From NCBI RefSeq assembly GCF_003287355.1, contig NZ_QMIM01000018.1:1-64000 (forward strand): a stretch of 64,000 nucleotides of DNA, written 5' to 3'. Made by a program: the position numbers and the translations under genes. This DNA is from Halorubrum sp. 48-1-W. Lineage in GTDB: Archaea > Halobacteriota > Halobacteria > Halobacteriales > Haloferacaceae. Of the stretch, positions 28,833 through 30,674 are shown piece by piece. Within the stretch, counting starts at the first letter, position 1; every line of letters begins with the position of its first letter. Below the pieces are notes generated by a model. The model was not told the origin of the DNA, made no database searches, and worked only from the letters and a program-made list of their open reading frames with translations.

Positions 28833-30674
28833 ATGACGCGACGGATCAGTCGGCGTCAGGCGCTCGCAGGGATCGGACTCGCGGTCGGGAGCGCCGGCTG
28901 TGCCGGGCGAGCACGGAACCTCGCCGGGCGTGAGGGCTCCTCACAGCTCGTGTTGGAGATCCGGACCACGCCGGCCGACGAGGACCCGAACGGGATACGG
29001 GTCGCACGCGCGCTCGCCGAGAACTTGACCGCCGTCGGCGTCGACGCACGGATCGAGACGATGAACGGGACCGACCTCCACCGAACGGTGCTCCTCAACC
29101 ACGACTTCGACGTGTACGTCGGCCAGTACACGGAGGTGCTCCCGTTCGATCCCGACGTCCTCTACGGCCTCACCCACTCGAAGTTCACCGCCGAGGCGGG
29201 GTGGCAGAACCCGTTCGGCTTGACCGACCTCGACATCGACGAACTCCTCGACGATCAACGGGACGCGGACGGTTCGGACCGCCCCGCGATCGTCTCCGAC
29301 CTCCAGGAGTCGGTGTGTGAGAAACAACCGTTCACCGTCGTCGCGTTCCCGGACGCGCTGGCGGCGGCGCGGACGGACCGGTTCGTCGGTTGGGAGACGG
29401 AGCCGCCGATATCCGCGAGCGGACTGATATCTCTCGATTACGTCGGAGAAGAGACCGAAGACGACGACGAGCCGGTCACCCTTCGTCTCACGACCACGGA
29501 CGGACGCATCTCCGAGAACTGGAACCCGCTCGCCGTGGAGTACCGCCGGTACGGGACGTTCATGTCGCTGCTGTACGACCGGCTCGCGATCGCCGACGAC
29601 GGGACCACGGTCCCGTGGCTCGCTCGCGAGTGGGAGCGGGTCGACTCGGAGACCATCGAGGTCGAGCTGTGGGACTCGACCTGGCACGACGGCGAACCGG
29701 TGACCGCGGAGGACGTCGCGTTCACGTACGCCTTCCTTCGTGACACCGCGATGGGGAGCACCGAGACGCCCGTTCCCGCCCCGCAGTTCCGCGGACGCGG
29801 GTCGATCGTGGAATCGACCACCGTCGTCGACGACTCGACCGTTCGACTGGTCGTCGGAGCGGCCGACGAGGGGGTCGCCGAACGGGCACTACAGGTCCCG
29901 ATACTCCCGGAACACGTCTGGGCCGACCGGGCCGAGACGGCGACGGTCGGCGGGTTCGAGTTCGACATCGAGGCCACGGAGGCGCTCGTCACGGCCAACG
30001 AGGACCCCGTCGGTAGCGGTCCCATGCGGTTCGTCGAGTCGACACCCGACGAGCGGGTCGTCTTCGAACGGAATCCCGATCACTTCCTCGTTCGATCCGG
30101 CCCGGAGGACGACGAGGACGCGGAGGACGGCTCGACGACGGGGATCGATTCCGAGGGACCGAGCCTCGATCCGTACCGCGGGAAGCCCGATTTCGACCGC
30201 CTCGAGGTCTCGATCGTCGGATCTGACGTCTCCGCGGTACAGTGGGTCGCCGACGGATACGCCGACGGGACGGTCTCGAACCTCGGACCGGACTCGGTCC
30301 CCCGGATCGGCCGCGAAAACGAAACCCGCCTCGTGAGCGCGCAGTCGGCCGCGTTCTACTACGTGGGGTACAACGCGCGACGCGCGCCGCTTTCGAACCC
30401 ACGGTTCCGCGGGGTCGTCGCGTCGCTCGTGGACAAGTCGGCGCTCGTCGACGACGCGTTCTCCGGGTACGCCCGACCGGCCACCAGTCCGCTGGCGATG
30501 TCTCCCGAGTGGGTCCCCGAGGCGCTCGAGTGGGACGACGACCGGGAGAAGGACCCCGTCCACCCGTTCCGCGGGGAGGACGGGTCGCTCGACGTGGAGG
30601 CGACACGCGAGGTGCTTCGGGAGATCGGGTACCGATTCGACGAGTCGGACAGACTACTCGCGCGGGAGCAATGA
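28833..30674 (+). CDS. Tat lipoprotein, circularly permuted solute-binding protein family 5
   Basis: This 613-residue exported lipoprotein starts MTRRISRRQALAGIGLAVGSAGC, with twin-arginine pairs and lipobox Cys23. The segment order is unusual. Residues 38-204 match what is normally the C-terminal part of SBP_bac_5 proteins (LVLEIRTTPAD, LAENLTAVGVDARIETM, NHDFDVYVGQYTE, FDPDVLYGLTHS). After an acidic linker (205-214), residues 215-613 match the normal N-terminal and middle parts (ENWNPLAVEYRRYG, LLYDRLAIADDG, WLAREWERVD, WHDGEPVTAEDVAFTYAFL, NARRAPLSNPRFRGVVASLVDKSALV). The chain ends at EVLREIGYRFDESD, exactly where the usual C-terminal segment would follow. No permease genes are nearby. 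It overlaps the PAP2 gene by 4 nt. The ligand is unknown. Confidence 0.85.
   Translation: MTRRISRRQALAGIGLAVGSAGCAGRARNLAGREGSSQLVLEIRTTPADEDPNGIRVARALAENLTAVGVDARIETMNGTDLHRTVLLNHDFDVYVGQYTEVLPFDPDVLYGLTHSKFTAEAGWQNPFGLTDLDIDELLDDQRDADGSDRPAIVSDLQESVCEKQPFTVVAFPDALAAARTDRFVGWETEPPISASGLISLDYVGEETEDDDEPVTLRLTTTDGRISENWNPLAVEYRRYGTFMSLLYDRLAIADDGTTVPWLAREWERVDSETIEVELWDSTWHDGEPVTAEDVAFTYAFLRDTAMGSTETPVPAPQFRGRGSIVESTTVVDDSTVRLVVGAADEGVAERALQVPILPEHVWADRAETATVGGFEFDIEATEALVTANEDPVGSGPMRFVESTPDERVVFERNPDHFLVRSGPEDDEDAEDGSTTGIDSEGPSLDPYRGKPDFDRLEVSIVGSDVSAVQWVADGYADGTVSNLGPDSVPRIGRENETRLVSAQSAAFYYVGYNARRAPLSNPRFRGVVASLVDKSALVDDAFSGYARPATSPLAMSPEWVPEALEWDDDREKDPVHPFRGEDGSLDVEATREVLREIGYRFDESDRLLAREQ

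Follow-up and report, generated by a model that had tools for sequence, protein, structure and literature searches.

A family 5 substrate-binding lipoprotein with swapped sequence blocks, found beside a PAP2 phosphatase gene in haloarchaea

The window, that is the whole stretch of 64,000 nucleotides analysed from Halorubrum sp. 48-1-W, contains a gene for a lipoprotein of substrate-binding protein (SBP) family 5 (Pfam SBP_bac_5, PF00496), Table 1. The gene lies between an open reading frame for a membrane protein and a gene for a PAP2 phosphatase, and the ATG of the latter overlaps the stop codon of the SBP gene (ATGA). The upstream membrane protein gave no Pfam or NCBIfam match; its gene usually precedes the SBP gene in congeneric genomes, as it does in several other haloarchaeal families. 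In the signal and lipobox, residues R7, R8, A21, G22 and C23 are invariant across six permuted paralogues and the GC of the lipobox is conserved at 90% or more in 60 orthologues.

Table 1. Features of the SBP locus and its neighbours in the window.
Feature	Position	Strand	Basis
Membrane protein, 436 aa	27452..28762	+	ORF upstream of permuted gene
Circularly permuted SBP_bac_5 lipoprotein gene, 613 aa	28833..30674	+	ORF, Pfam, N- and C-part HMMs
Tat-type signal (ISRRQALAG) and lipobox ending at Cys23	28833..28901	+	Read directly from sequence
Displaced C-terminal block of SBP_bac_5, residues 38–204, now at the N-terminus	28944..29444	+	Pfam, C-part HMM, model
Acidic linker from old C-terminus to old N-terminus, residues 205–214	29445..29474	+	Sequence, HMM
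N-terminal block of SBP_bac_5, residues 215–613, now at the C-terminus	29475..30671	+	Pfam, N-part HMM, model
PAP2 (AUR1-like, PF14378) membrane phosphatase, 299 aa	30671..31570	+	PF14378, 1e-15

The window protein scored 157.7 bits against PF00496, for which the curated cut-off is 32.4, in two stretches whose order was reversed. Residues 215–613 matched profile positions 2–279 (E 5.5e-39) and residues 37–205, searched alone, matched positions 289–364 of 368 (E 9.5e-6). So as to rely on more than one profile, an HMM for each block was prepared from 35 family 5 proteins of canonical order. The C-part HMM matched at about residues 45–191 (E = 3e-20) and the N-part HMM at about residues 232–606 (E = 3e-54). 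The canonical order places the N block before the C block; the window protein has its C block first and is thus a permuted variant rather than a canonical member of the family. A previous inspection of the letters alone, the sequence-only reading, had assigned residues 38–204 to the segment that normally ends these proteins and residues 215–613 to the segments that normally begin them, and both kinds of profile bore this out. Its acidic linker at residues 205–214 is a fair placement, though with approximate limits as the HMM matches lie ∼40 residues apart. The chain was also said to stop at EVLREIGYRFDES; in fact eight more residues, DRLLAREQ, follow to residue 613.

The swapped order could conceivably reflect an assembly error, a frameshift or a piece of a tandem SBP array taken in the wrong register, and tandem fusions of family 5 units do occur, as in the Thermoplasmata protein described below (L041). 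However, when the 64 kb were scanned in six frames with the filters off (--max), taking every stretch of 25 codons or more, neither block was credibly matched anywhere else in the window, the next best hits having iE values of 0.019 and 1.8. A second C-terminal segment hidden by a frameshift, which the sequence-only reading had named as a possible refutation, is thereby excluded. The same order recurs in hundreds of independent genomes, and the matches of permuted and canonical proteins to the permuted profile are cleanly bimodal. The reading as an array fragment is further opposed by both ends of the gene: it opens with a signal peptide, and its end overlaps the start codon of the gene that follows. 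The probability of there being no permutation is thus negligible, and it is near-certain that the chain of this SBP_bac_5 lipoprotein is circularly permuted, as had been proposed from the letters. The profile order, the conservation in hundreds of genomes and the structural matches, which complement each other and meet at one residue, all point the same way.

Those structural matches were obtained with an AlphaFold2 model of residues 36–613, made from an alignment of 40 sequences, which formed one folded unit (pLDDT 82.7, pTM 0.84). Since the structural aligners are order-dependent, the model was superposed piecewise on canonical chains and not in one superposition. Residues 175–578 of the full model (210–613 of the protein) aligned with residues 17–358 of Bacillus subtilis AppA (1xoc; Z 21.4, rmsd 3.1 over 335 residues), and the N-block part also aligned with residues 1–347 of DppA (1dpp). 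The first 175 residues, folded alone as the C-block piece (pLDDT 78), matched AppA residues 357–520 (Z 9.5) and DppA residues 341–506 (Z 9.2), with an rmsd of about 4–8 Å over 136–155 residues. The two pieces therefore tile the same PDB chains, these two and others, with a common boundary, as is characteristic of a circular permutation. Foldseek alone, given the whole model, aligned it to canonical chains over ∼270–465 columns with a high rmsd, as expected from an order-dependent alignment. From the piecewise comparison, the three-domain bilobed fold of DppA and OppA is securely predicted for the window protein. Among the best 60 of 118 PDB sequence matches, no chain was collinear with the permuted profile, the best stretches all starting at or beyond position 165 of 512.

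The new N-terminus maps to AppA residue 357 and OppA residue ∼356. The latter falls in domain III of OppA, residues 271–486, and the N-terminus of canonical family 5 proteins is in domain I. By this geometry the lipid anchor would have moved, relative to OppA and DppA, to the opposite lobe, as the sequence-only reading had claimed, and the shift may alter access of ligands or the choice of partners. Permuted members of the Halomonadaceae type carry ordinary signal peptides that lack a lipobox, so relocation of the anchor is not the general reason for the permutation.

The window protein shares with DppA, OppA, AppA and NikA (SBP_bac_5, cluster C) both sequence blocks and the predicted bilobed fold, but its blocks are swapped and its termini and lipid anchor would lie in lobe II. 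SBP_bac_5 was its only Pfam match at E<=10, and the PDB sequence and structure matches listed all belong to family 5. A natural circular permutant has been described among the type I glucose-binding proteins, namely TpMglB-2 (Tp0684) of Treponema pallidum, for which its authors proposed a class ‘Type Ic / cluster Bc’ and also speculated on membrane anchoring (PMC4990184). TpMglB-2 is likewise a naturally permuted, tethered SBP; however, it is a sugar-binding protein of type I, cluster B, and its kind occurs chiefly in treponemes and Gram-positives. The literature searched contained no description of a permuted family 5 protein, only that of the type I TpMglB-2, the coverage being partial and the evidence of absence accordingly weak. 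Circular permutation of binding proteins is therefore known already, and it is the family concerned, its spread, its repeated origin and its pairing with PAP2 that appear to be new.

Ten family 5 proteins are encoded in the genome containing the window, six of them permuted and four canonical, so that here the permuted form is the commoner. A search for orthologues of the window protein (E<=1e-50) was positive in 262 of 391 haloarchaeal genomes, which represent 67 of 86 genera. The bimodality of the profile matches was seen in 29 haloarchaeal genomes, where 50 matches in 18 genomes spanned positions ∼3–511 and canonical proteins covered ∼175–500. A scan of the genome collection, followed by a test of block order with the HMMs derived from canonical proteins, gave 46 unique permuted ORFs, including two of more complex layout (L041 and L081). 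Permuted members occur in the Pseudomonadota, Bacillota, Spirochaetota, Deinococcota and Nitrososphaerota, the bacterial and archaeal carriers including Halomonadaceae, Natronospirillum, Aliihoeflea, Martelella, Paracoccus, Spirochaetaceae, Trueperaceae, Symbiobacterium and a Nitrososphaeria MAG. The idea that the junction might define a purely haloarchaeal family, which the sequence-only reading had left to be checked, was discarded on these grounds. Within the phylum to which the Symbiobacterium genome belongs, a match at E<=1e-100 was obtained in 18 of 299 genomes, and all matches listed span most of the permuted profile. Among 398 genomes of the Pseudomonadota, the phylum of Vreelandella, a match was obtained in the centre genome only, which is a lower bound as the top three candidates per genome were scored.

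Nearly all permuted members outside the clade of the window protein, in archaea and bacteria, adjoin DppB-C-D-F genes and most lie directly before DppB. Most of these relatives head DppBCDF operons as cluster C proteins do, and the permuted form in general most likely serves Dpp-type ABC import. The window clade differs from cluster C in having no linked permease genes; no DppBCDF-type importer genes were found within ∼5–7 kb of its members, whether in the window itself, at the loci of Natronomonas, Natrinema and Halobiforma or in another 20 genomes. Its usual neighbour is the PAP2 gene. The pair was present at all 29 congeneric loci and, with no DppB or DppC nearby, in 19 of 20 distant genomes, the exception (L137) having no PAP2 gene beside the SBP gene. 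The catalytic motifs of the phosphatase, PSLH and HxxxD, are intact in 55 of 55 orthologues. Six loci from Natrialbaceae and other haloarchaea (L029–L032, L143 and L156) contain tandem SBP-PAP2-SBP arrays, some with a further PAP2 gene, which indicates local duplication of the pair. At one locus, L024:17318-19228, a gene for a 636-residue lipoprotein lies close to a further permuted Dpp operon of the same genome and is absent from the SBP_bac_5 matches there.

Taken as a whole, these results are best explained, with a probability of about 80%, by a permuted, lipid-anchored family 5 SBP that captures a solute and is coupled to PAP2. The gene product would be a surface-exposed, lipid-anchored SBP of the DppA/OppA-like cluster C in which the old C-terminal third comes first. 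The old termini, which would be neighbours in lobe I, would be joined by the acidic linker, and the new termini would have been opened in a loop of lobe II just after the helix ‘..aAReiLeeAGY’. One bilobed Venus-flytrap is still predicted to form; it would capture a solute and, from the geometry above, be tethered to the membrane via lobe II instead of lobe I. In the window clade, translation of the SBP would be coupled to that of a PAP2 phosphatase that acts externally, a partnership suggested by the gene order.

What the pair does together is a more tentative matter. The likeliest role, proposed with less than even confidence, is that the SBP captures a ligand processed or released by PAP2 for uptake by a Dpp-type permease elsewhere. 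It is also quite possible that the protein is an orphan SBP for such an importer and that PAP2 is a functionally unrelated operon mate. Family 5 SBPs can share importers, the window genome carries several DppBC permease pairs, and no clade member examined has a permease in the 5–7 kb around the gene, all of which would suit an orphan. However, the tight ATGA overlap and the persistence of the pairing across distant haloarchaeal families, even as SBP-PAP2-SBP-PAP2 arrays, argue for a link between the two products. Taking that link further, the SBP may have left transport to become an accessory ligand-binding subunit or sensor of PAP2, for example by offering it, at the membrane, a substrate that is phosphorylated or linked to lipid. 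That the clade as a whole has lost its linkage to permeases and acquired one to PAP2 is consistent with such a change, as are conserved motifs specific to the window orthologues such as the QNPFG stretch. Against this, signatures of the N lobe typical of importer SBPs (WHDGEP.TAEDVAFTY and PVGSGP) are retained, and this role is rather unlikely. Capture of a PAP2-derived ligand for import is the preferred role, and the SBP-PAP2 combination, whatever it does, is conserved widely among haloarchaea and can be tested.

The number of times the swap arose was examined with a tree of 85 rows, 34 of them permuted, built from the N and C blocks joined end to end. A single permutation ancestral to all permuted family 5 proteins might be expected from the 31 of the 34 permuted rows that form one branch (SH-aLRT 96), and a single clade was not rejected when the Symbiobacterium protein (L050) was left out (p-AU 0.17). 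However, this protein is sister to a canonical protein from Ardenticatenales (L101) with support of 100, the two being 56% identical in the N block and 46% in the C block, and a single clade of all 34 permuted rows was rejected (p-AU 7e-70). When seven Bacillota-side sequences were added, L165 joined L050 (98) next to canonical L101 (99), and the minimum number of changes stayed at 4. One further protein, L081, is cut at another point. A single origin was accordingly rejected as highly improbable. The nesting of the Symbiobacterium-type group among canonical proteins indicates that the swap arose at least twice at the same cut. The most likely route would be in-frame tandem duplication followed by loss of the outer halves. 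That such an intermediate can exist is indicated by L041 (121-7224), a single sequence from a Thermoplasmata MAG, which encodes 2368 residues in tandem N-C-N-C family 5 units.

A broader view, that permutation at the lobe-II loop is a recurrent route in family 5, giving an overlooked subclass (‘cluster Cc’) in Archaea and Bacteria of which one haloarchaeal branch left ABC import for PAP2, is speculative and in its entirety doubtful. Few importer components are more abundant than binding proteins of family 5, and annotation by profile takes the permuted ones for ordinary members because Pfam scores both pieces. The permuted proteins offer a set on which to test structure and homology methods built on a constant order of segments. 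Permuted SBPs at the head of complete Dpp operons, with at least two origins at the same cut, also amount to a natural experiment on whether the tethered lobe matters for docking to the permease.

The differently cut protein, L081 (4731-6839), is a single sequence from a Culexmicrobium MAG and has the order N2-C-N1, making a third cut. A likely Ig-like stretch and a C-terminal membrane anchor follow its N1 part, and its gene sits between DppDF and DppBC genes. Tandem canonical family 5 genes, raw material for fusion or permutation, were observed on contigs from Gemmatimonadota and Pseudonocardia (L051, L069 and L087).
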